NCBI GenBank assembly: GCA_030425645.1
Contig: JAUHZK010000003.1
Span: 186,001-250,000, forward strand
Direction of reading: 5' to 3'
DNA: 64,000 bases
Source of the DNA: Gammaproteobacteria bacterium
Lineage (GTDB): Bacteria; Pseudomonadota; Gammaproteobacteria; JAPPPA01
The notes under the pieces are model-generated. The model saw only the letters and a program-made list of their open reading frames with translations. It was not told the DNA's origin and ran no database searches. The translations under genes and the position numbers were made by a program. Below, piece after piece: positions 5,912-45,499 of the stretch (its first letter is position 1; each line of letters starts with the position of its first letter).

Positions 5912-6334
5912 CTAGTCTAGCAACTCGGCGGCTAACGCCTGCACCCGTTGTTTAACATCATCTCTAACAGCGCGAAACTGGGCCATGATTTCTTCTTCTG
6001 AACCCGTTGCCTTAGCCGGGTCTGGCAACGGCCAGTGAATTCGGGTTTTGCCAGGCGGCAGCACCGGGCAATGTTCGTCAGCATGCCCACAAACGGTTAC
6101 AAAATAGTCGGTTTGCGCCATCATTTCGTCAGTGAGCACGGTAGATTCTTGCGCCGAAATATCCAGCCCATCCTCAGCCATAATGGCAATTGCCCGCGGG
6201 TTTTTACCATGTGCCTCAATACCAGCAGACAACACTGCCCAGCCTTCACCAAAAGCAGCTTTGGCATAGCCCTCACACATTTGACTGCGGCAAGAGTTGC
6301 CAGTGCATAGAAATAAAACAGTTTTACCAGACAT
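5912..6334 (-). CDS. arsC: Arsenate reductase, low-molecular-weight phosphatase type
   Basis: 140 residues with the thioredoxin-coupled ArsC fold. The P-loop CTGNSCRS has the nucleophilic Cys10, Cys15 and Arg16. Cys82 and Cys89 in VCGHADEHCP form the relay pair that passes the disulfide to the surface. The DP pair after LPDPAKATG matches the acid loop of the LMW-phosphatase fold. The enzyme reduces arsenate to arsenite in the cytoplasm, with thioredoxin as electron donor (trxA is at 55983). No arsR, arsB or acr3 gene lies nearby, so export must be encoded elsewhere. The ribosome site is weak. Confidence 0.92.
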   Translation of the reverse strand: MSGKTVLFLCTGNSCRSQMCEGYAKAAFGEGWAVLSAGIEAHGKNPRAIAIMAEDGLDISAQESTVLTDEMMAQTDYFVTVCGHADEHCPVLPPGKTRIHWPLPDPAKATGSEEEIMAQFRAVRDDVKQRVQALAAELLD

Positions 6335-6447
6335 CAGCTTTAAGATTCTTACTAAGGAAGGGCCGACAGTTTAGTGCAAGCAATAACGTTCGTCATAGAG
6401 TCTTGATCTGCTAGCGTTGCCATAGCCGTTTACTGGTCTAGTTGACG

Positions 6448-6660
6448 TCATAAATCACCTAGCGTTAACAGCAAATGCACGTGGCTGGTCATCAACACAT
6501 AAGCATGCATATCAACGCCACATTTGCGGCTGTACTCTTTCAGCTTATCAAGATAAACCTTGTAGTCCTGGTCTCGTAAAAAACAAACCTGGCGGTCATT
6601 TCCCCGCCGAATAAGACATTGAGGGATACCCGGAAAATTGGAGCGAGACAGGCACGGCAT
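6448..6660 (-). pseudogene. Truncated REP-associated tyrosine transposase (RAYT)
   Basis: Only about 70 N-terminal codons of a Y1/IS200-like transposase remain. The visible RAYT signatures are SRSNFPGIPQCLIRRGNDRQ, the DYKVYLDKLKEY helix, and HAYVLMTSHVHLLLT with the metal-binding His-x-His. The frame then stops at a TGA, before the catalytic tyrosine helix found in full-length members, so it should be inactive. The family mobilises or disperses short REP hairpins. Repeat units of TTTACTCTGACCC flank it just upstream (6715-6759), which fits a decayed RAYT locus. Confidence 0.88.
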
Positions 6661-6714
6661 AGCAAAACCTTTAGAAAAACGATTTGCTACGGCAAGTCAG
6701 GGAGTCCACAAAAT

Positions 6715-6759
6715 CAATTTACTCTGACCCCAATGGTTCTACTCTGACCCCAATGGTTC
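6715..6759 (+). repeat. TTTACTCTGACCC repeat, two tandem 20-bp units
   Basis: The unit TACTCTGACCCCAATGGTTC occurs twice head to tail at 6720-6739 and 6740-6759, preceded by CAATT. The first 16 bases (6715-6730, CAATTTACTCTGACCC) are an exact inverted copy of 7810-7825. A related pair of CCCCTTTGGTTA sequences follows at 6771 and 6791. Confidence 0.85.
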
Positions 6760-6841
6760 AGTTCAACATGCCCCTTTGGTTATGGTTAGACCCCTTTGGT
6801 TACTTTTGGTTGCTTCGCTCCTTTGATTTCCAGTAATCCCA

Positions 6842-7675: not shown

Positions 7676-7758
7676 TGCTCAATGCCCATATATTCAAAAT
7701 ATGTTTTCATCTACTGCACGCCATAGAGCCTCAGAAAAGTATTCATTCGTACTAGAGA

Positions 7759-7825
7759 ATCATAAGGGTCAATCATAAGAATCATAAGGGTCAGAGTAAA
7801 TAATCATAAGGGTCAGAGTAAATTG
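7759..7825 (-). repeat. Inverted array of TTTACTCTGACCC units
   Basis: Two 22-bp units, ATCATAAGGGTCAGAGTAAA plus two bases, sit at 7781-7802 and 7803-7824, with shorter broken copies at 7759-7770 and 7772-7779. They are inverted relative to the copies at 6715-6759. Bases 7810-7825 are an exact inverted match of 6715-6730. Confidence 0.85.
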
Positions 7826-21184: not shown

Positions 21185-24100
21185 CTATTCCACGACCTCA
21201 ATGTAGCCAGTTGAGCGGAGCACGCATCCACTGTCTTCATCATTGGCCTCTGCAACCGCCACCGCTAAATCATAGCGGCCGACATATGGCGCCGATACAT
21301 CCCTTGCCAGCTTAATTCCACCGCTAGGACTCAAACTAGAATAGTTCGTCCGATATAGGATGTCAGTTGTATCGTTACCGACAATACCAAGTTGCACTGA
21401 AGCACCACTGTTAGCTGAGTTTGCTGGGTAATCTAGATTAAATATCACCGTTGTATCGTTGCCTATACGGGCATAGGCATTGGCATATTTTTGAAAATCA
21501 CTAACGACGCTTAAAACATCCTGGCTAACGCCTGCTTTGCAACTAGTATTGCCCACACTAAATGGCTGGGGAGAATTGATACCCCCTTGAGTAACCCTTT
21601 TCCCGCTCGGATCGCCAGAGCCAGCCCCCGAATCCGAGCCGCCTTCCGGCCTGCCATCAAAGTAACAGTCAACTTGCTCCCATGCTCCGTACTGATGGTA
21701 ATCATCCAAACCACTTGTACCAGCCTGAAGCTCACAATCGGCCGTCTCTTCACCCCGGTTCCAACGGCCATCACCATTGCCATCACGATACACTACGACT
21801 TGGTAGTGATGCCCCGAGCTGGCCGAAAACTCCTCCTCGTTTGTGCCCAGCAAACAGGCGTCAGAAAACCGACCAGAGCTGCTCGAAATAGGACAGTTTA
21901 GGCCATTAAAACTATCTTGCAGCACATTGTCACGAGTGACTAAGCGAATTCTTAGGTCGGTAGCAATAGAGCCCGTGACGGCCGTTATAAGGCCCTGTAC
22001 CAGCCCGTCAACCTCTCGATTGCCAGACTCATTGGAAGGAAGGCATTTACCACTAAGGGTGCCCGTACCGTTAGGTTTGCTACCACTGCCGTTGTCGCTC
22101 AACGCCAAACTGTACTCTGAACCATCGGCGAGCGACTGATACCAAGTACCAGCTGGATTTACAGAACTGGTTCCACTTCCACTCCATTGGTCAATACCAC
22201 CGTCTGCATGACGCCAATGCATTCGAGTGTTGGATAACTCCGTCACCAAAACTAGCGCATCGCTTTCACTAACACTGTTAGGGCCACAGTTTCGAAAGCT
22301 CGTAGACAACAAATCAATATCAAGCGTCTCATTATCTACATTGTACTGCCACCGAAGCGTGGCCTCGCCATTTTCTAGATTGCCTGCTTCATCTGCATCG
22401 GCGCCCACACACCCACCCTGGGCTTCGCAAAACGCTTTCGCAGCATCAGAGCTGGCATATAAACGTTCTGTACCCTGGTCGCCTCCATTGTCTTCATAGA
22501 TAAGCGCGCAAAACAAAGCATCAGAACCATAATCCCAACAAACTTCAATATAGCTATCCGCTCGCTTGACGGGATAAACATTCACATCGGTATACCCGTC
22601 GGGATTACCGGGTGTGGCATTCACCAAGACTAAAGAACCGTCCCTAGCAATATCGTAAGACTCTGGCCCAAAACTGGCCGGCCCTGTAATGCCAGGAGCA
22701 TAGTGATAATGATCGTCACCAAAAATAATGCGATCTAAATGCCAATCACGATTATTCTCTTTATAAACACGATACAACGTTCGGTTTCGGAGTTCATCGC
22801 GACTAAAGCCCTCCACAGGGTCAGCCTCGTTTACTGCCACATCAAAACTACGCTCTACAAATTTTCCATCATTCCCTTCGACTACTACCCTAACCGGGGT
22901 CTGGCCAACATTATCAAACACACATGTCAGCTCAAATTCGTTAAAGCCTGTTTGACGGGCCGCAGAGCAATTGCCCGCAGAGGGCTGCACATCACTTACT
23001 TGTTGAATGTTTGAGCCCGTAACTGTCAGCGTTACTTGTTCATCAACAACCACCTCCCTAGGCTGCAAATCTGCGATTATTGCCGCGACTGAGGCCTCTG
23101 GGGTGCGCCTTGCGTCAATAAAATCTGATGGATCGACAAACCCAACCGCGCTCATCACCTCATGTGCACGCTTGATTTCGTCTCCCGTCATGCTGCTTTT
23201 TTTAACAACAATAGTGCCGTCGGTGTAGTAGCCGTTGCCATTATCACCGGGCCAATCATCTCCTAGATCCGGGTCATACTTTGTACGTATTTCAAAGTGC
23301 AGATGGGCATATAAGCCTGAACCATTTTGACCTCGCATATTCGCTAAACGGCCAATAACTTCCTTCTCGCTAACCCAGTCGCCGACTTGCAAACCAAAAC
23401 TACTCACGCTACTTGTCATCTGCCCGTCGGTGAGCTGCTTGCCTGTGATGTGCAAGTAGAAACTGTACACCGAATCTCCCCCAACCTGAGGGTGCTCTAA
23501 CACCATTAACCAAGCGAGGTTACCTTTATTGGCCAAGCGAACCACCTTGCCGTTGGCAATTGCCGTAACCGGCTGACCAGCGTCACTGTCACCCGAACCT
23601 TGATTCCAATCTTCACCCGGATGGACACCTTCTGTACCTGGCAGCTCTAAAAAGCTACCCACATCCTGTGCGTTTCGCCATAGATTGTTATCAGAGTTCG
23701 GCTTGCCCCGCTTAGCGTTATCGGCCACATCATTAGCGCCATACAAATTGTTTTGCTCAGGGCTAATTTGCTCCGCCAATGCAACTGGCTGCGATCCGCT
23801 GAAGTCAGCGCGCTCACCGGTTTGCTCATCTAAACCTACCGGATAATGAAACCCTTCAGCTTGGCTAGGCGTGAAACCAATATTTACGCTACCACCCGCT
23901 AGCAACTCTCCACCACTTTGGGCTTTAACGGTCATTTCAAGCGACCCGGTGCGGCGGTGCATGCAATCCATAGTGAACAACTCACTACTAACCCGCTGTT
24001 TATTGCCGCAGTAACTGGCATTTTGAATATGCGCCGTTACGGTTTCAGGGAAGTTTGTGCCATTCACATGATACTTAACCACTTGGCCCGCTGCCGCACT

Positions 24101-27100
24101 AGTAGGGCTAACGCTAGTCACACTCACCTGCTCAGGGTCGTCTGTTTCGGTTACGGTAATTGTGGCTGCCGCAGTATCGGTCGCACCATCGTCGTCGGTC
24201 GCTGTAAGGCGAATCGTATAAACACCCGCTGCCTTGTATTCATGGCTCCAACTAATAACTTCACTGAAGCAAATATCAGCTGGCGGTAGGCGACTCACCC
24301 CGCCATCGCCCCAGGTGACGTGATAGCCAACGATGCAGCCATCCGAGTCAGAACTGCCATCCGTCGTTATTGCGAACCCCTGGTCTTCCTCAACACTTGT
24401 GGGCGCGTTGATTTTGGCAATAGGAGGACTGTTCTCAGACTCAACAACAACCAAAGTGATTTCTGCAAAATCGGCATTGCCATTACTGTCTACCGCCTTA
24501 ACTCTAAACCGATGCTCACCGACCACTTGAGTTCGGTGGGTAAATTCTACGCCTCTACCCAACCATGCTGCCCTATCATCCGCGAGGTAATACCAAGTAT
24601 ATTCTAGGTGGTCGTTTTCAGGGTCAGTTGAGCCCTCCGCAGACAGGGTAAACGTCTCACCCGCGGAGAACTGACTTTGGCCACCTACAACAACTGCTCG
24701 CGCAGTAGGGGCTTGATTTATTGTAGTTTGGCTTTCCACGACCAGAATGGGTGAGTAATAAGTAGTTGGTTGCCCGTCGACCAATATAAACTTGCCATTC
24801 TTCTTTGGCCGGACTCGAGCGCGATAATAATCGGCTTGAGAGTATTGGTAACTGAAAGCAACTCCAACGTTGCCATTAGAGTCCTCTGTAAATTTCGCAT
24901 TAGGATGCAGTCTCGTTAAACCACCGTAGGGGTCACTATCAAAGTAGAGCTCATATGCATCTTCGGCCTCTTCGACCGAGTCTTCGCCTGATAGAGGAAA
25001 CCAGAAGTTAACCATATCGCCGCTGGCTACTGTACGACGCGCATCGTCATGGTGACTTAGAGCGCTATTTGTAAAGTACAAACCCAGCTTTGTACCTTCT
25101 GTTGTCTCCTCACTTTCTTGTTCAGCGAGTAACTCTGCCACCGATAAATCTACTGTTTTATCTTCTTCCGAAAGGCGGTAACAAGAAGCACCTTGGTATC
25201 TCGGAACAGACAACTCCAGTTGCGCGCTATGAACTTCGTCCGCTACCACGCTTTCACTAAAGCGCCCTGAGGGAGAAACATCCAGCTCGTAACGCTTTCC
25301 ATTAACTAGTAGGTCAGCCGAGATTCCATCAACCGCTGTGAGCGGCTTGTCACCCAAGCCGAACTCAAGATCCCCACCAAAATCATGGTAAACAGTGTTG
25401 TCGTGTCCAATACGACGGCCAACTTCGAAACCCTCAACGTAATAAGTTAGCTGACCAGTAGGCCTGATTACGAAATCTGGGAGGTGAGTTTCTTCCAAAA
25501 TTTTATTTACAGAGTATTTATTGCCGTGTGCTGAAACGTAATCGGCTCGGTACGACGTGCGGAAGTCGACGGGGAGACGCCGGCTAGTAGTCACTTCTGG
25601 GATTTCAACATCCGGAATTAGACAAGTAGCTCGTGAATTTCGTTCACTTAATGCACATGCCTCAGCAGACTTATAGAAACTTTTGTCAGCGGAGACGTCC
25701 TCAAACTCATAAGAAAGATTAACGTTTTGCGGATCTAGTTTGTCATCAAGGAACCTGAACCCCTGAGCCCCTAACCTGAGTTCTACATCGTATTTTTCTC
25801 CACCACACACCTCTGCCGGATCGCCATACAGCACATTATGGTTTTCTACGAACACCGAGACATCAATCCGATGCGGACCATCCGCTTCTACATCCTGCCC
25901 TTTGGAAATAGGTAACGCCGCATCAAGCACCTTTTTAAGGCCGTCTAGGTCATCTTGCTTCACAGATTCCTGATATAGACCCTCCACCATGCGCCAAAAC
26001 TGAGGGGGCGGATCTTCGTCGTCCGGCACAGAGCTAGCAAACCACTTTACATCTCCAGCCAGCAGCTCCCAATCGTGCGTCGGCAAGGGTCCAGAGCCAG
26101 ACAAGTATCGATACAGCTCATAGCCAGCATCAACATTGTTACCTCGCCTATAGTCAACATACTGTCCAATCTGAGCATTTACCCAAATATCGTGATACCC
26201 AGATACGACAGTCGTACCCAAATCAAGAACCACATCAAGGTACTTAGAAGCTAATTTGTTTGCCACGGATGCGTCTGTCGTCCAAGAACCCACTTGATCC
26301 TCAACGGCTCCCAAAGGGTCAGATACAACCTCTCCAAAGTCGTTCATTCGCTTCATAAGCAAAAGCGCATCTGTCGCGTCATCACCAATCATGGTTCTGG
26401 ACAGTGTCTCAACTGGGCTCCCGATAGCCTCTTTGGCCCAACCCCAAGTTTTCAACACCCCAAAAGCCGGAAGCTCGCCTTCAGCGTAAAGCTCTTCAAA
26501 TGCCCTCTGATATCTACGCTGGCTAAAATAGCGCTTAATATTCTTTTGCTGGATAGCCGACTTCACTATGTCGAAAACCAACAAATCTTTGTTCGATGCA
26601 TCTCGGACCTTAACTGTCTGCAAGTTAACCGACAGCAAACGCAGCCACTCTTCTGCACTCATCTCCCGGTAGGGTTGCAAATCATCAGAGTCGTAGGATA
26701 CGTCCGGCGCTCCTTCAAGTAAGATGAGCAACTCACTAACGAAGCTCTCCACTTGAGATTCGTCGTAAGCAAAGCTCGTCAAGTTATCAAAATTATTCTG
26801 TACATCTTTATTAATTTGATATTTGCTAAAATGTTCCGTGCGAAAGCTAACCAAACCACGATCGATATCGACACTTTCTGGCACAAGAGAATCAACGGAT
26901 CCATCGTCATTTACCCGCGTTACAATAACGTCGCTAGAATTAACCCCCTCGGGACGAAATGGCATTGAGACCAAGACAGGCTTAGCGAATTGAGTGCCCG
27001 CGGGCAGCAACTCTATCGCTTTACTCAAGGGCACGCCCAAGACGGCTTTCCCGTCGCTCTCGAGCTCAGAAGCAACAATAGTGACCGGCTTATCTACAGC

Positions 27101-28111
27101 GCCTGCAGGAACCAAAAGCTCAAATCCTGCTAAAGAATCTGATTGCTCGTTAGTCACGTCTAACAAGCTTACCGAGCCAGGGTCAGCATCCACATGGCCA
27201 AGTTCGCTAGCTTCATACGCGACAGCATCCCAGAAATATTGGGCAACGCGATGCTCTCCATGCTTAATTTCCAATGCTATAGAGGTACTACCTACCCGTG
27301 ATAAGGTGGCGCCACCAGTCACAACTTGGTCATCCATTGTCCACTCTGTCACCAAACCTCTTGGCAAAGCCTGCTCTGGAAAAGTTATGACTGCTCCTAC
27401 CTCTGCATAAAGAGGGCCTGGTGGCTCGGGCTCATAATCGACAAACTCGAGAGCACGCTTTGCTAAGCCCGACTGCTGATCGCCACGATGAATTAGCCCG
27501 ACATAAGCTTTTAGCAAATCGTCATATGATACTTTTAGCTGGTCTACGTGCCTAAGTGGGTCGAAAGCCAGCACATCTCCTAGGTCAACCCGCCCGTCAC
27601 CATCGAGATCATTCAACAATTTCTCAGCAATACCGCTAGCCGTAGCCCCATCCCCTAAGTTTTGCTTTGGAGTCGAGCGATATATCAAGTCTGACAGAGC
27701 AGTGACACGCACGGTTCCGTCTAAATTTTCACTCGGTATTAACCCGTAGAAACTTCCCCGGTTTTTCACTCCAGCAGAAATATCTATTTCACCATTATCA
27801 TCTGGGTCAAGATCCGTGCCCCCAGATACTTTAATGACATACATTGGGGACGAAAGCCCTGCGGGGAGCGAGATGGAAAACGCCCCTAGGTCGGCTCCAG
27901 ATACGCTATTTGAAGTTTCAGCAACAGCCAATGGGTTGACCAAGTCTGATACCTCATAGAGCTCTACTATTCCGCTCTGTATGTATCCAAGTTGAGCTAC
28001 CCCGCTTATTCGCCGCGAATCATCCTGTACTGAATCTCCATACCCCCCCCCGCAAGCCGCAAGAAAACCCATCGCAGACAAAACCAGCCAAACTCTAGTA
28101 ACACGGAACAT
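21185..28111 (-). CDS. Giant surface lipoprotein with PKD, IPT/TIG and M23 peptidase domains
   Basis: 2308 residues. A lipoprotein signal ends in lipobox LAAC (Cys20), followed by Gly-Gly-Gly encoded by nine consecutive G residues. An EF-hand/dockerin-like loop NDLDGDGRVDLGDV lies at about 167-180. Two PKD-type domains span about 1131-1225 and 1228-1320 (GSTDPENDHLEYTW; GSSDSDGCIVGYHVTWGDG), and an IPT/TIG-like domain about 1325-1410. An M23 (LytM) metallopeptidase at about 1490-1640 has HPGEDW (His1497, Asp1501) and HLHFEIR (His1603, His1605), so the zinc ligands are intact. A second IPT-like domain follows near 1655-1740. The C-terminal 550 residues are cysteine-containing, strand-rich and unrecognised. 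The product is probably anchored in the outer membrane; murein hydrolysis is inferred from the motif only. The barrel gene follows directly. Confidence 0.85.
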   Translation of the reverse strand: MFRVTRVWLVLSAMGFLAACGGGYGDSVQDDSRRISGVAQLGYIQSGIVELYEVSDLVNPLAVAETSNSVSGADLGAFSISLPAGLSSPMYVIKVSGGTDLDPDDNGEIDISAGVKNRGSFYGLIPSENLDGTVRVTALSDLIYRSTPKQNLGDGATASGIAEKLLNDLDGDGRVDLGDVLAFDPLRHVDQLKVSYDDLLKAYVGLIHRGDQQSGLAKRALEFVDYEPEPPGPLYAEVGAVITFPEQALPRGLVTEWTMDDQVVTGGATLSRVGSTSIALEIKHGEHRVAQYFWDAVAYEASELGHVDADPGSVSLLDVTNEQSDSLAGFELLVPAGAVDKPVTIVASELESDGKAVLGVPLSKAIELLPAGTQFAKPVLVSMPFRPEGVNSSDVIVTRVNDDGSVDSLVPESVDIDRGLVSFRTEHFSKYQINKDVQNNFDNLTSFAYDESQVESFVSELLILLEGAPDVSYDSDDLQPYREMSAEEWLRLLSVNLQTVKVRDASNKDLLVFDIVKSAIQQKNIKRYFSQRRYQRAFEELYAEGELPAFGVLKTWGWAKEAIGSPVETLSRTMIGDDATDALLLMKRMNDFGEVVSDPLGAVEDQVGSWTTDASVANKLASKYLDVVLDLGTTVVSGYHDIWVNAQIGQYVDYRRGNNVDAGYELYRYLSGSGPLPTHDWELLAGDVKWFASSVPDDEDPPPQFWRMVEGLYQESVKQDDLDGLKKVLDAALPISKGQDVEADGPHRIDVSVFVENHNVLYGDPAEVCGGEKYDVELRLGAQGFRFLDDKLDPQNVNLSYEFEDVSADKSFYKSAEACALSERNSRATCLIPDVEIPEVTTSRRLPVDFRTSYRADYVSAHGNKYSVNKILEETHLPDFVIRPTGQLTYYVEGFEVGRRIGHDNTVYHDFGGDLEFGLGDKPLTAVDGISADLLVNGKRYELDVSPSGRFSESVVADEVHSAQLELSVPRYQGASCYRLSEEDKTVDLSVAELLAEQESEETTEGTKLGLYFTNSALSHHDDARRTVASGDMVNFWFPLSGEDSVEEAEDAYELYFDSDPYGGLTRLHPNAKFTEDSNGNVGVAFSYQYSQADYYRARVRPKKNGKFILVDGQPTTYYSPILVVESQTTINQAPTARAVVVGGQSQFSAGETFTLSAEGSTDPENDHLEYTWYYLADDRAAWLGRGVEFTHRTQVVGEHRFRVKAVDSNGNADFAEITLVVVESENSPPIAKINAPTSVEEDQGFAITTDGSSDSDGCIVGYHVTWGDGGVSRLPPADICFSEVISWSHEYKAAGVYTIRLTATDDDGATDTAAATITVTETDDPEQVSVTSVSPTSAAAGQVVKYHVNGTNFPETVTAHIQNASYCGNKQRVSSELFTMDCMHRRTGSLEMTVKAQSGGELLAGGSVNIGFTPSQAEGFHYPVGLDEQTGERADFSGSQPVALAEQISPEQNNLYGANDVADNAKRGKPNSDNNLWRNAQDVGSFLELPGTEGVHPGEDWNQGSGDSDAGQPVTAIANGKVVRLANKGNLAWLMVLEHPQVGGDSVYSFYLHITGKQLTDGQMTSSVSSFGLQVGDWVSEKEVIGRLANMRGQNGSGLYAHLHFEIRTKYDPDLGDDWPGDNGNGYYTDGTIVVKKSSMTGDEIKRAHEVMSAVGFVDPSDFIDARRTPEASVAAIIADLQPREVVVDEQVTLTVTGSNIQQVSDVQPSAGNCSAARQTGFNEFELTCVFDNVGQTPVRVVVEGNDGKFVERSFDVAVNEADPVEGFSRDELRNRTLYRVYKENNRDWHLDRIIFGDDHYHYAPGITGPASFGPESYDIARDGSLVLVNATPGNPDGYTDVNVYPVKRADSYIEVCWDYGSDALFCALIYEDNGGDQGTERLYASSDAAKAFCEAQGGCVGADADEAGNLENGEATLRWQYNVDNETLDIDLLSTSFRNCGPNSVSESDALVLVTELSNTRMHWRHADGGIDQWSGSGTSSVNPAGTWYQSLADGSEYSLALSDNGSGSKPNGTGTLSGKCLPSNESGNREVDGLVQGLITAVTGSIATDLRIRLVTRDNVLQDSFNGLNCPISSSSGRFSDACLLGTNEEEFSASSGHHYQVVVYRDGNGDGRWNRGEETADCELQAGTSGLDDYHQYGAWEQVDCYFDGRPEGGSDSGAGSGDPSGKRVTQGGINSPQPFSVGNTSCKAGVSQDVLSVVSDFQKYANAYARIGNDTTVIFNLDYPANSANSGASVQLGIVGNDTTDILYRTNYSSLSPSGGIKLARDVSAPYVGRYDLAVAVAEANDEDSGCVLRSTGYIEVVE
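28043..28051 (-). repeat. G9 homopolymer directly after the lipobox cysteine codon
   Basis: On the coding (minus) strand nine consecutive G residues encode residues 21-23 of the giant lipoprotein, immediately after the lipid-modified Cys20. As read, the frame is ON. Gain or loss of one G would frameshift the gene right after its signal peptide. Confidence 0.9.
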
Positions 28112-38828: not shown

Positions 38829-39380
38829 CTATTCACCCAATCGATAACGCACACCGGCACTAAAAATGATGTCGGTATAGTCACTAACACCCGCCACGCT
38901 CTCGTTATCTTTACTACGCTGAAGCTTGAGTTCTGCACCGGCACTCCAGCGCTCTGCAAAGGCACTCTGCCAGCCTACGCCTAGATTGAAAATGCCGTAG
39001 TTCACTTCATCGCCATTGGCAACATCGGCTTGCGCGATGCCCAGCCCTAACATTCCGTAAGCCTGATGCTTGCCAGCTAGCTGGCCCCATAGATAATTGA
39101 CGGAGAGGTTATCAATGCCTTTGTCATTGCCACCACTACTAATGTTGATTTCCCAGCCACCGTAGTTAAGCTCAAGTGCTCGACTATCTGACAAGTTATA
39201 GCGTACATCTAACTCAAGCCCCTGACCGCCGCTAGCGCCGGCATCTAACTTGCGAGCACTATCCGTTGCCAGACTCAGGGCAGACACTCCAAGTGACCAT
39301 GGCCCAGCCATAGCCGGCATAGACATTCCCAAAATGCTAACGGCAAAGGCCGCAACGCCGATATTTCTTTTAACGTTCAT
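38829..39380 (-). CDS. Small outer-membrane beta-barrel, partner of the TSP3 giant lipoprotein
   Basis: 183 residues. A signal peptide ends near MPAMA and is followed by about eight amphipathic strands (LELDVRYNLSDSRALELNYGG, YGMLGLGIAQA, FNLGVGWQSAF, DIIFSAGVRYRL). It fits an OmpA/OmpX-size barrel. DSARKLDAGASGGQG near the start and ESVAGVSDYTDIIFSAG near the end match the same places in the barrel at 20664-21182. It starts 31 nt after the stop of the giant TSP3 gene, so the two form an operon and a second copy of the same gene pair. Confidence 0.78.
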   Translation of the reverse strand: MNVKRNIGVAAFAVSILGMSMPAMAGPWSLGVSALSLATDSARKLDAGASGGQGLELDVRYNLSDSRALELNYGGWEINISSGGNDKGIDNLSVNYLWGQLAGKHQAYGMLGLGIAQADVANGDEVNYGIFNLGVGWQSAFAERWSAGAELKLQRSKDNESVAGVSDYTDIIFSAGVRYRLGE

Positions 39381-39411: not shown

Positions 39412-42400
39412 TTATTCTTCGCAATCTGCGGCTGCAGATGGGGGCGAAATGTTGCATTCGTCTGCATCCCAAACGTCTTGCTGGGTAGCGCTGAAGCCGA
39501 AGTTAGGCTCAGTACCAAGGTCGTCGGTGTCAACCAGCACATCAAACTCTTGTTGGCTTTCATCGGTAGATGAACTACCAATGGCTTCAACCTCTACAGT
39601 CCAGCCCTCGGCGATATCGACAAAGCTTAGAGCATTAACAGTAATGGTCGTAATGCCTTCCATATGCTGCAGGTTCTCGAATTCATCGACAAGCTGCACC
39701 AGACCATTTTCGTCTTCCGTAACAACATCCAGATCAATATCCGGGCTTGCTGAACCTGCTGCTGTGCCGGTGTAACCGTAATCCAAATCTAGGCGGTAAC
39801 CCAGAGTGATATCTTGGTTATTAGAGTTATCTACATATTCACCAATAATAACGAGCGCCGTGTTTGGCGACTTAAGCGCAAAACTAGCAGTGTTTTCAAA
39901 CGCCGTGCCTGCATCATTTAACTCTTGTTCCACAGAACTGTAGCTGGTGAAATCGATAAAGGTGTCGATTTGCTCAGTGGTACCGCTAGGCGCGGTGTTA
40001 TCAAACTCATTGGCCGTTTCAGTAAACGTTTGCGCAACCTCATACACACCATTATCAATTTCTTTTTCTTCAATGGTGCAGTCGTCTACCGAGCCGTTAC
40101 AGAAACCTTCTACAAACTCTAGGTTGGTGATATCTACGCGCCATACGTAGGCAGTATCACTAGAAGCTGTGATAGTCATGCGAAATTCGCCGGCATTTAC
40201 GCCATAGAAATGACTGTTAGAGCTATCAAAACCTTCTACACAGTTATTGAAGGTCACGCTAACAACATCCCCAACATCCGGGTCAAACGGGTCTGATGAG
40301 CCATTATTTGGCGTGTTATCCGTAAAGTTGCGAGTTACCGTACCGGCTGTGTTTTCACAACTAGGCAGCTCATCTGAGTCTGGCAATACAAATAACAACC
40401 AATCGATGGTGTCTTCTGGCGACTCAGCACCTTCATCCATTACCACTAATGCGGCGGCTCTTTCGTTAGCTGTTGGCTCAGCCGGACCCCAACTCACTAC
40501 TACATACTCAACCACCAAGTTGATGCCATCATCTATGTGCAACTCCAACACGGTAGTACCGCTAGAAGTCGTAGGGGCAGTCCAGCTAGTCGTAGCCGTA
40601 TCGATTGCCGCAAAAGTTCCTGCCCGAGCTTTCCAAGCGTAAGTTAGTGCATCACTCTCTGGATCAACTGCAGCGGCAGCCAAGTTAATGACACCACTTG
40701 GCAAGGCAGCAAAATTCTCGGTCGAGGAAACGGTGACGGAAGGGGCCTTATTATTTAAAGCAGCCGCCTCGACTCCACCGTCAACACTAACCGCCACGCC
40801 GATCAAGCGCTCTCCCCAATCACAGCTATTAGGGTCATCGTCTACCTCTTGAGACCCACCAGCCAAAATCATTGCACCGTTATCGCCGACAAAACCACGT
40901 AGAGTTTGCTCAACCACATTCTCATCCAACAGCTCCAGTATCACATCACCTTCAGAATTAACTTTTAGTCTAACCGGGTCAGAAAAAGCCACACCAGGTG
41001 AATAGTCGCCATCAGACGCACTACCATCTAAAGCAATGCGACCAAACCGAGCCCCACCTTCAACAGTAGCCGCTTGTCGAGCCTCAATAAAATCATGACC
41101 ATCCGTTCCACGCATAGTCGCATCGAAACACTGTGTAGTAGCTCCCAAACTCGCATCGCAAGCCGTTGCAGGGGTGTTGTGTACATCAATCAGTAAATTA
41201 TTCAACATCAAAGGCACACTGCCGTAGTTGCACGATAGCTCGCGGCCACTCATTGAAAGCCGCAGCTGCTTACCGGCCAGCATAGGAGACGACGTTGCCT
41301 TGCGCAGCATCAATCCATACTCTGAAGACCCATCACTAGCACCGCTCTCAGCCGCGTAAACAACAGCCATATTTCCATCGGCCGACATTTTCCCATTGAG
41401 CTGGAAGGTTTCTCCGCCTTCACTAAGAGACAGCAAAACCGCACCAATGTCACTCTGATGTGGTGTAAAGGTACCGGTTGCTGAAACGCCCTGACCTGGC
41501 TCTACGAAAAAGCCGATATCACCATTGCCATCGCTACTTAAGATTTCCGCAGCCGGAAACTGAGTAGTCAACCCACCAGCATCTGCAACTGTCATATCCG
41601 TCTTAATTACATCAATTTCAATTAGACTATTTGTCGCCGTACCATCAACGGTTTGAGAATCAACCTCATGAATCAAACTCAAAAAGCCGTAGTCTCCAGC
41701 CAGCGCACTCTGCTCAAACTGCGCTGTAGGCTTGCGTAGAGCGACCCCTAGGAAACTATTAGTCGACAACCGCACCTCGCTGGCCGTGGCCTCCAAAGCG
41801 GAATTGTAATCACCCCCATCCAAATCAGGATCACCGTTACCGTCGTCATCCACATCCTCGGCGGTGAAGGCACGATCGATAGATAGCTCACTGATTAGCA
41901 ATACTTGCGGTGCCTCGCTAGCCCCAAGCGGAGTAATCGAGTAACGCGGCGAATAGAAGGTGTTGTAATCCCTTCCACTCTGGATATAGGCCCCTGAGAA
42001 GCCACGCACAAAACCAAGCTCACCCTTTAAAGCAAGCTCGAGAGGGTGATCACAACCTCCTTCGCACGATGCTTCACTGTCAGCAAACAAATCCGCGCTT
42101 GAGCTGTCACGTTCGAGCCCGAATGTCTCTGCGCCAGTAAAGGCAGCGATTAACTCCGTTCCAGAAATTCGGAAGTCAAAGTTGTTCCACCCAAACAAGC
42201 TGGTTGCATATGCCCTACTCGCATTAGCACCCGGACCGTTTTGGCCATTATTTATCATTGAGACGCCATAAGAGCCATCAAGGCTCGCACCAGCCGCACC
42301 TATATGACAACCGTTGGCGTCAACATTGTCACGCTCCACTGCCGGAGTATTAGGACAGTCATCATCAGCGTCAGCAACGTTGTCGCCATCATCGTCATTA

Positions 42401-45400
42401 TCACAAGCGTCACCCTGAGTGTCGCCATCGGTATTAGTCTGATCAGGGTTCGCATCATTTGGACAGTTGTCAGCGTTATCACCAACGTCATCCCCATCCG
42501 AGTCGGCAGATTCAGCCGCATCATCAGGGAAGGCGTCTTGGTCGTTATTGGTGCCATCGCCATCGCGGTCAGCATCACAAATATCACCTAATGCATCATT
42601 GTCCTGGTTGGCTTGGTCTACATTGGCGTCGTTTGGACAATTATCGGCGTTGTCACCGATTTCATCACCATCTGAATCAGCAGATTCAGCGGCGTCATCT
42701 GGGAACGCATCTTGGTCATTATTCGTGCCGTCACCGTCACGATCCTCATCACAGACATCACCCAAAGCATCACTATCTTGGTTTGCTTGGTCGTTATTGG
42801 CATCTAATGGGCAGTTATCGGTATCGTCGTTAACATCGTCGCTATCCGTATCAGCCAGTAGCGGATCAGTCCCATTGGTGGCTTCGTCGGCGTCGCTGAC
42901 ATTGTCGTTGTCGTCGTCAGCATCACAGGCGTTACCGTCGCCGTCTTCGTCAGTGTCGGTCTGATTTTCGTTCGCAGTTAACGGGCAGTTGTCAGTGTCA
43001 TCATTGGTATTATCACTATCGGTATCGGCCAACAGCGGATCGGTGCCGTTGGTGGCTTCATCAGTGTCGCTAACATTGTCGTTGTCGTCATCAGCGTCGC
43101 AGGCATTACCCTCTGCATCACCATCGGTATTGGTTTGGTCGGCATTTTGTACGGCTGGGCAGTTGTCTGCGTTATCAAACACACCGTCCCCGTCGCTGTC
43201 GGTTTCGCCTGGCGCACAACCTTGTGCGTTTACTTGGTCAACTAAATCTTGCGGTGTAGTTGGGCAAGCGTCATCACCATCTGCAACGTCGTCGTTATCG
43301 TCGTCGTCATCGCAGACATTACCTTGCTCGTCACCGTCGCTATCCAGCTGGTCGGCATTAGCGCTCAGTGGGCAATTGTCTTGGTCGTCGGCCACCGTGT
43401 CGTTGTCATCGTCGTCATCGCAAACATTGCCTTGCGAATCACCATCACTATTGAGCTGGTCGATGTTGGCATCTAGCGGACAGTTGTCTTGGCCATCCGC
43501 CACAGTGTCGTTATCGTCATCATCGTCACAAACATCACCTTGCGAGTCACCATCGCTATTAAGCTGGTCAGTATTGGCATCTGCCGGACAATTATCTTGG
43601 CCATCGGCAACAGTGTCATTGTCATCATCTTCATCACAGGCATTCCCTAGGGCGTCGTTATCGCTATTCGCCTGATCCGAGTTCGCATCTAAGGGGCAGT
43701 TATCGGCACCATCCAAGACACCGTCATCATCACCATCACGATCGTTTGGCGCAGCATCATCACCGTCAGCTACACCGTCGTTATCATCATCAGGGTCAGC
43801 ATTGTCACCAATACCGTCCTTATCGTTATCGCTACTTTCTGAGGCATTCAGAGGGAATTCGTCAGCACTATCATTAACACCGTCGCCATCGTCATCGTCA
43901 TCACAGGCGTCACCCAAGGCGTCACCAGTCTGAGAGGAGCCGTCGGTATTGGTTTGGGCCGGGTTAAATGCGTTCGGACAGTTATCAGCCTGATCTGGCA
44001 CGCCGTCGTTATCAGCGTCCAACACAGCCACCTGATCGTCCTCGTCGCAGGCCGCACCAACACCATCTTGGTCGGCATCAGCTTGATCAGCATTAGCATC
44101 TACAGGGCAATTATCCTCTGGGTCGTTAACACCGTCCTCGTCCGAGTCAACCGACAGCGGGTTGCTGCCTAATGCTTTTTCGTCGCCATCCGATAGGCCA
44201 TCGTCGTCACTATCCGTGTCACGCGGATCGGTGCCATCATCCGCCTCATCAACGTCGCTAACACCATCGTTGTCGTCATCTTCGTCTGAGCAGCTAAAAC
44301 CTCTTACCGCAGCTCTATTGGCCAACTCGTCACAGCCACCCAGCTCAGCTCCACGCTCACCATCAACAAGCGCATAGGCAACATCAGGTTGACCATCGCC
44401 GTCGGTATCACGATCTGCAGCAGCATCGTCCGGGAAGTCATCTTTGGCATTCTCTACATCGTCACCATCACGATCCGGGTTGCGAGCAGCCGGCTGGGTG
44501 ACCGTTTGTTCGTCTTTGATCGCTTGCTGCTCTTCTTCGCTAACAGCATTACCAGTGGCGGCAGTTTCGTCGGCCACAATTTCCTCAATATCAGCAACGG
44601 TTTTGCCGCCGGTATTCGGAATTACCAAACTATCTGGGTCTTGATCGAGCACATCAAGCGAAGCCTCCTCGACAACAACATTACCGTTACCGTCGTCGCC
44701 ATCAATCTCGCCGTCACCGGCTAAGTCTTTCGCCAAGTTTGCCAGCACTTCTTCAGGGCTTGTTTCTGCGCCACTGCTTTGTTCACTTATCTGATTTACT
44801 ACAGCGGTGAGCGCCTCAACCGCGGCACGATAAGCGGAAACATCCGCTACTGGAGTTTCACCGCTTTCGGTTTCACCAATTGCAACGGTGTCGTCAACCA
44901 GTGGTGGCGTATCGAAAATATCAATCTTGTTGGCATCCAAACCAAACCCAACCGTCGAGGCCACTTGACCAGCAGCAAACTGCAGGGCTGCTTCAAGGTC
45001 ACCCTCGTCGGATGAAGTCAAACCATCAAAGTCAGCAAAATTTTGGAATGCGATATCCACCGCCATATTGGTTAATGGCGTCGCATAAATCTGCTCACCT
45101 TTTGCCGCCAACGCACTAGTTAACACCGTTTTTAAGGTAGTTATAACGGGCGCAACGCCGGTGGTTAGATCTGTTGTATCGTCGTCTGACTCAAACACTA
45201 ATAAATAAGGGAACACCTGTGGAAAGGCTAATGTCACACCCGTAATTTGAGCCTGAGCATCTGTTTCACCGGTAGCGACCAAAGCGCCCTGCGAAACGCT
45301 GGCACCGTCAAAATCAATGGCGTATACATTGACCACCGCGCCCGCCATTGGGCCCTTAACACCACCGCCTTTAAGCGTTGTCGACTTGCCACCGCCCGAA

Positions 45401-45447
45401 CCGCCGTAGTCGCCGCTACCACTACATGCGGCAATTACATGCGGCAA
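39412..45447 (-). CDS. Giant thrombospondin type-3 repeat protein, signal peptide out of frame
   Basis: An open frame of about 2011 codons. Residues 30-200 resemble the N-terminal domain of other large lipoproteins (KGPMAGAVVNVYAID ... PYLLVFESDDDTTDLTTG). Residues about 324-1048 are an Asp/Asn-rich array of TSP3-type calcium-binding repeats (DNCPxDANxDQxNxDGDxxGxxCDDDxD). A middle domain holds cysteine pairs. An Ig/cadherin-like domain lies near 1490-1590 (AVDPESDALTYAWKA), and the last 400 residues are strand-rich and unrecognised. The frame can only begin at a TTG (45447) without a ribosome site. The real signal peptide starts at 45499, but a 13-bp tandem duplication puts it out of frame. 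With one copy removed the protein reads LFIAAC-SGSGDYGG, an ideal lipobox. The body shows no other damage. Confidence 0.85.
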   Translation of the reverse strand: MPHVIAACSGSGDYGGSGGGKSTTLKGGGVKGPMAGAVVNVYAIDFDGASVSQGALVATGETDAQAQITGVTLAFPQVFPYLLVFESDDDTTDLTTGVAPVITTLKTVLTSALAAKGEQIYATPLTNMAVDIAFQNFADFDGLTSSDEGDLEAALQFAAGQVASTVGFGLDANKIDIFDTPPLVDDTVAIGETESGETPVADVSAYRAAVEALTAVVNQISEQSSGAETSPEEVLANLAKDLAGDGEIDGDDGNGNVVVEEASLDVLDQDPDSLVIPNTGGKTVADIEEIVADETAATGNAVSEEEQQAIKDEQTVTQPAARNPDRDGDDVENAKDDFPDDAAADRDTDGDGQPDVAYALVDGERGAELGGCDELANRAAVRGFSCSDEDDDNDGVSDVDEADDGTDPRDTDSDDDGLSDGDEKALGSNPLSVDSDEDGVNDPEDNCPVDANADQADADQDGVGAACDEDDQVAVLDADNDGVPDQADNCPNAFNPAQTNTDGSSQTGDALGDACDDDDDGDGVNDSADEFPLNASESSDNDKDGIGDNADPDDDNDGVADGDDAAPNDRDGDDDGVLDGADNCPLDANSDQANSDNDALGNACDEDDDNDTVADGQDNCPADANTDQLNSDGDSQGDVCDDDDDNDTVADGQDNCPLDANIDQLNSDGDSQGNVCDDDDDNDTVADDQDNCPLSANADQLDSDGDEQGNVCDDDDDNDDVADGDDACPTTPQDLVDQVNAQGCAPGETDSDGDGVFDNADNCPAVQNADQTNTDGDAEGNACDADDDNDNVSDTDEATNGTDPLLADTDSDNTNDDTDNCPLTANENQTDTDEDGDGNACDADDDNDNVSDADEATNGTDPLLADTDSDDVNDDTDNCPLDANNDQANQDSDALGDVCDEDRDGDGTNNDQDAFPDDAAESADSDGDEIGDNADNCPNDANVDQANQDNDALGDICDADRDGDGTNNDQDAFPDDAAESADSDGDDVGDNADNCPNDANPDQTNTDGDTQGDACDNDDDGDNVADADDDCPNTPAVERDNVDANGCHIGAAGASLDGSYGVSMINNGQNGPGANASRAYATSLFGWNNFDFRISGTELIAAFTGAETFGLERDSSSADLFADSEASCEGGCDHPLELALKGELGFVRGFSGAYIQSGRDYNTFYSPRYSITPLGASEAPQVLLISELSIDRAFTAEDVDDDGNGDPDLDGGDYNSALEATASEVRLSTNSFLGVALRKPTAQFEQSALAGDYGFLSLIHEVDSQTVDGTATNSLIEIDVIKTDMTVADAGGLTTQFPAAEILSSDGNGDIGFFVEPGQGVSATGTFTPHQSDIGAVLLSLSEGGETFQLNGKMSADGNMAVVYAAESGASDGSSEYGLMLRKATSSPMLAGKQLRLSMSGRELSCNYGSVPLMLNNLLIDVHNTPATACDASLGATTQCFDATMRGTDGHDFIEARQAATVEGGARFGRIALDGSASDGDYSPGVAFSDPVRLKVNSEGDVILELLDENVVEQTLRGFVGDNGAMILAGGSQEVDDDPNSCDWGERLIGVAVSVDGGVEAAALNNKAPSVTVSSTENFAALPSGVINLAAAAVDPESDALTYAWKARAGTFAAIDTATTSWTAPTTSSGTTVLELHIDDGINLVVEYVVVSWGPAEPTANERAAALVVMDEGAESPEDTIDWLLFVLPDSDELPSCENTAGTVTRNFTDNTPNNGSSDPFDPDVGDVVSVTFNNCVEGFDSSNSHFYGVNAGEFRMTITASSDTAYVWRVDITNLEFVEGFCNGSVDDCTIEEKEIDNGVYEVAQTFTETANEFDNTAPSGTTEQIDTFIDFTSYSSVEQELNDAGTAFENTASFALKSPNTALVIIGEYVDNSNNQDITLGYRLDLDYGYTGTAAGSASPDIDLDVVTEDENGLVQLVDEFENLQHMEGITTITVNALSFVDIAEGWTVEVEAIGSSSTDESQQEFDVLVDTDDLGTEPNFGFSATQQDVWDADECNISPPSAAADCEE
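42305..44478 (-). repeat. DNA encoding the TSP3 repeat array
   Basis: This stretch codes for about 725 residues of Asp-rich repeats. Near-identical units recur: 36-residue (108-bp) units at about 43360-43660, 58-residue (174-bp) units carrying DAFPDDAAESADSDGD at about 42470-42820, and 58-residue units carrying DEATNGTDPLLADTDSD at about 42830-43180. All unit lengths are multiples of three, so recombination would change length without breaking the frame. Confidence 0.85.
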
Positions 45448-45499
45448 TAAACAGCGTCACAACCAAGATAGCGACAAAACGCAAGGAACGAGCAACCAT
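45422..45499 (-). pseudogene. Orphaned lipoprotein signal peptide of the TSP3 giant
   Basis: From the ATG at 45499, with GGGAGA seven bases upstream, the frame reads MVARSLRFVAILVV then TLFIAAC, a complete lipoprotein signal and lipobox. It then continues NCRM and stops at a TAG (45422-45424). The stop arises because the second copy of the 13-bp duplication shifts the frame. This is the true 5' end of the TSP3 giant gene. Confidence 0.88.
45423..45448. repeat. Perfect 13-bp tandem duplication across the lipobox
   Basis: TACATGCGGCAAT occurs at 45423-45435 and again at 45436-45448. On the coding strand ATTGCCGCATGTA encodes Ile-Ala-Ala-Cys plus one base, so the repeat unit is the lipobox itself. 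Two copies are OFF; one copy, or four, restores the frame. Confidence 0.95.

Follow-up and report, generated by a model that had tools for sequence, protein, structure and literature searches.

A 13-bp tandem duplication of the lipobox disconnects the signal peptide from a giant TSP3-repeat lipoprotein in a gammaproteobacterium

Genomes with contingency loci usually carry several multi-copy repeats in surface genes. The 8-bp unit of Pseudomonas aeruginosa mexT is a two-copy tandem, and duplications in pneumococcal capsule genes have reportedly been seen to revert. The capsule cases are spontaneous tandem duplications inside the open reading frames (ORFs) of cap3A, cap8E, and tts, and the published titles speak of phase variation control (Waite et al. 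2001, 2003, cited in PMC4022640). In mexT, the presence of the unit puts the gene out of frame, and its deletion yields a functional product (PMC7819972). The locus described here lies on the minus strand of the window, by which we mean the whole stretch of 64,000 nucleotides analyzed. Like the capsule genes, as far as their titles describe them, it has a two-copy tandem duplication within an ORF that would inactivate a surface-structure gene, and like mexT it has a short unit that puts the gene out of frame. Unlike the capsule genes, the gene encodes a lipoprotein and is known here from one assembled sequence; and whereas mexT encodes a regulator and occurs in both states in many strains, the window gene encodes a surface protein of which one state is known. 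By analogy with these precedents, the 13-bp repeat may be reversible.

The duplication (45423..45448, minus strand) consists of ATTGCCGCATGTA × 2 and spans the lipobox codons. As originally predicted, it is exact: the copies at 45423-45435 and 45436-45448 are 100% identical and number exactly 2.0, and the match continues into neither adjacent base (ttt-ATTGCCGCATGTA-ATTGCCGCATGTA-gtg), giving an array of exactly 26 bp. Since 13 = 3 × 4 + 1, the duplication is out of frame, with a shift of one base. Five locally shuffled versions of the 300-kb contig contained no perfect tandem with a period of ≥12 and only one with a period of 11, so that the 13-bp repeat is well beyond chance. A census of 440 kb of the genome, made up of a complete contig plus 140 kb from a second one, recovered, at periods of ≥10, the lipobox repeat, a single 12-bp repeat that lies in an ORF and keeps the frame, and three repeats between genes, making the lipobox repeat the only frame-breaking perfect tandem of ≥10 bp within an ORF.

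The start-proximal frame (45422..45499, minus strand) opens with an ATG at 45499, with GGGAGA ahead of it (both recognized by inspection), and is translated as MVARSLRFVAILVVTLFIAACNCRM; in this product the signal peptide MVARSLRFVAILVVTLFIAAC runs on into NCRM, and a TAG ends the frame after 25 codons. At 45447-39412, the long frame comprises 2,011 codons with zero internal stops and reads …IAAC-SGSGDYGG…, which bears out the original prediction of a signal peptide that runs into a TAG while about 2,000 codons stay open in another frame. The two parts of a signal peptidase (SPase) II-type lipoprotein, signal peptide and mature protein, occupy different frames. A TGA lies in the long frame four codons ahead of its first TTG, so that no signal peptide can be read in this frame; no hydrophobic segment follows either, and the idea that the long frame uses another start was rejected. 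As a minor correction to the original prediction, the lipobox is disconnected from the start codon and the hydrophobic core, but its letters are not lost, since the second copy spells Ile-Ala-Ala-Cys in the long frame. At the sequence level, then, an out-of-frame lipobox duplication disconnects the signal peptide from the giant lipoprotein. A scan for sigma-70 promoters upstream of the gene gave nothing above chance.

Thrombospondin type 3 (TSP3) repeats bind calcium in solved animal proteins. The mature frame (39412..45447, minus strand) encodes an N-terminal domain (GGGVKGPMAGAVVNVYAIDF…) that carries a GGGVKGPMAGAVV motif, a long run of about 20 TSP3 repeats, and a unique C-terminal half with no named family among the Pfam, NCBIfam, and PDB matches. 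Pfam TSP_3 (PF02412) matched with 155 bits (gathering cutoff, 25; 3.5e-46), the PDB matches were thrombospondin-2 and COMP (2rhp, 6e-33), and the NCBIfam MtsC match stayed under its cutoff (299 versus 350 bits required). Going by these matches, the product is a TSP3-repeat lipoprotein of the calcium-binding type. It shares the tandem acidic DxDxDG-type repeats with human thrombospondin-2, COMP, and bacterial MtsC-like proteins; what sets it apart is that it is a bacterial lipoprotein whose N-terminal domain and C-terminal half are its own. Downstream, after a gap of 31 bp and also on the minus strand, lies a small OMP beta-barrel gene (38829..39380), and the two genes are therefore probably cotranscribed as one operon.

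Further repeats and giant proteins were also seen. Within the TSP3 region, positions 42458-43691 hold DNA-level repeats of 108 and 174 bp (75 to 79% matches), units divisible by 3, which suggests that the region grew by in-frame duplication; the differences from the congener in this region are in-frame gaps. A second TSP3-repeat protein is encoded in the same genome outside the window (G000 contig C8, ∼245889-251336) in an uninterrupted frame of 6,307 codons, and a further giant protein, probably also at the surface, is encoded at 21185-28111 by a 2,308-amino-acid open frame that has PKD domains and an M23 peptidase domain. A REP-associated tyrosine transposase survives as a truncated remnant at 6300-6760 (NCBIfam REP_Tyr_transpos, E value of 1.8e-5, under cutoff; Pfam Y1_Tnp, 0.0024), beside which a perfect 20-bp tandem, TACTCTGACCCCAATGGTTC, occupies 6720-6759. 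The core GGGTCAGAGTAAAT of an intergenic tandem, AATCATAAGGGTCAGAGTAAAT (7758-7823), is the reverse complement of the motif ATTTACTCTGACCC at 6717, ∼1 kb away; the motif and the tandem may mark both ends of a single decayed REP-type element.

Homologues were searched for in 56 genomes, among which G001 is the only congener. Its orthologue shows 72 to 73% identity and, as in the window, adjoins aroQ, accB, and accC. It starts with MHLSATHYLRLAALFVFSLLIAACSGGGSYDGG, in which the 13-bp unit stands once and both signal peptide and lipobox are intact, with the lipobox Cys in frame with the mature protein (…LLIAAC-SGGG…). More distant homologues in G037, from another family, also start with a signal peptide and a Cys (e.g., LAAALAVTLAGCGGG and LIGVVGLSVLLSACGGG). 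The one-copy, in-frame arrangement is therefore the functional one and is most likely also ancestral, with the direction of change polarized by one relative only. Between the congener and the window, dN is ∼0.2 with dS saturated (N-terminal half, the part common to both genomes), which points to purifying selection on the mature part between the two species and to selective maintenance of the protein over most of its past. For the C-terminal half, the congener, with a contig that breaks off within the gene, gave no match; a scan of genome contigs with the N-terminal domain found no relatives, and one with AccB found generic gammaproteobacterial loci only and was set aside.

The gene body could acquire a stop by 486 single changes, corresponding to ∼162 expected stops per substitution per site (486/3), and zero were observed in 2,010 codons. 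Neutral divergence since inactivation would thus be bounded at roughly <2% (a crude 95% bound that assumes equal rates). With one lesion and 2,011 open codons, the gene does not look like an ordinary degraded pseudogene, which carries several lesions. The stop-free gene body indicates that the lesion is young or reversible, two states that sequence alone does not separate, and, together with the one-copy congener orthologue and its intact signal peptide, it upholds the earlier view of a recent event.

We consider it likely that the repeat is a recent, private loss-of-function duplication in the lipobox of this giant TSP3-repeat surface lipoprotein gene. The main rival, which we regard as unlikely but still deserving of weight, is an assembly or gap-closing artifact in which contig ends sharing 13 bases were abutted unmerged and the real gene is intact. 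Abutted ends would leave exact copies that no flanking base extends, the congener has one copy, and a 2,011-codon frame with no other lesion fits an intact gene. However, the repeat lies in midcontig (C9:231423-231448 of 300517), the genome is 99.5% complete in 16 contigs, and ordinary reads or k-mers greatly exceed the 26-bp array in length. A generally bad assembly was ruled out: the coding-frame census of the 440 kb gave two candidates, neither a frameshift on reading (the first proved to be a normal gene start that overlaps the stop before it, and the second an ordinary gap between genes with an ATG after it), and the absence of another convincing frameshift indicates that the assembly is generally clean. 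Expression of the two-copy gene by +1 ribosomal frameshifting within the duplicated lipobox seems very remote; a shift at any point from the TGA at ∼45457 to the TAG at 45422 would bring the gene body into frame with the signal peptide, and a Cys could be retained, but no known +1 shift signal was recognized, and the congener needs none. Hardly any credence attaches to a lost insertion element whose 13-bp target-site duplication survived imprecise excision: the direct repeat is perfect and lacks flanking microhomology, as such a footprint would be, but no residual element sequence stands between the copies. The transposase family searched was DDE_Tnp_1, which had no match in the genome, ruling out a footprint of an IS4-type element.

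The original prediction had instead proposed slipped-strand switching. An evolved phase-variation switch, in which slipped-strand gain and loss of the 13-bp unit toggles the lipoprotein, is quite improbable. The repeat is perfect, sits at the start of a giant surface protein where a change in copy number alters the frame (13 bp × 2, in the leader), and leaves the gene body intact, and the pneumococcal capsule genes offer a precedent for two-copy duplications as on/off events, in the terms in which PMC4022640 cites them. Against this, there are two copies only, where contingency loci usually have multi-copy arrays; the congener carries no repeat; and no similar frame-breaking repeat occurs elsewhere in the 440 kb. 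A hairpin promoting slippage was ruled out, since the DNA folds no more stably than its shuffled versions (z = −0.02). The congener's single copy, which the original prediction had expected of an assembly error, leans toward a private mutation or an error, and away from a maintained switch. We see no sign that copy loss is frequent or selected enough to count as phase variation, and a switch is less likely than a private, recent null. That the lipobox serves as the repeat unit of a reversible switch, toggling surface display of a 2,000-residue calcium-binding lipoprotein and, by polarity, of its partner beta-barrel in a free-living gammaproteobacterium, appears very doubtful. If both states were present, this would be antigen-type switching by a two-copy repeat in a nonmodel bacterium, and the anchor signal would be the element that switches.

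Under the favored explanation, a recent private null, the duplication inside the lipobox displaces the reading frame by a single base, translation that begins at the normal start stops after 25 codons, and no lipidated, exported protein would be made. Polarity from the premature stop may, in addition, reduce expression of the beta-barrel gene downstream. The two-copy state would be a private null allele of the sequenced clone, and, as with short direct repeats in general, the perfect repeat could drop a copy at a low rate. For a useful gene, fixation of a null in a representative genome would be somewhat unexpected, so that a mixed population is conceivable. If the lesion is a plain recent null, annotators should be aware that what looks here like a 2,000-codon “gene” starting at a TTG is a lipoprotein gene in a broken state, and giant surface lipoproteins can be lost through a single small duplication.
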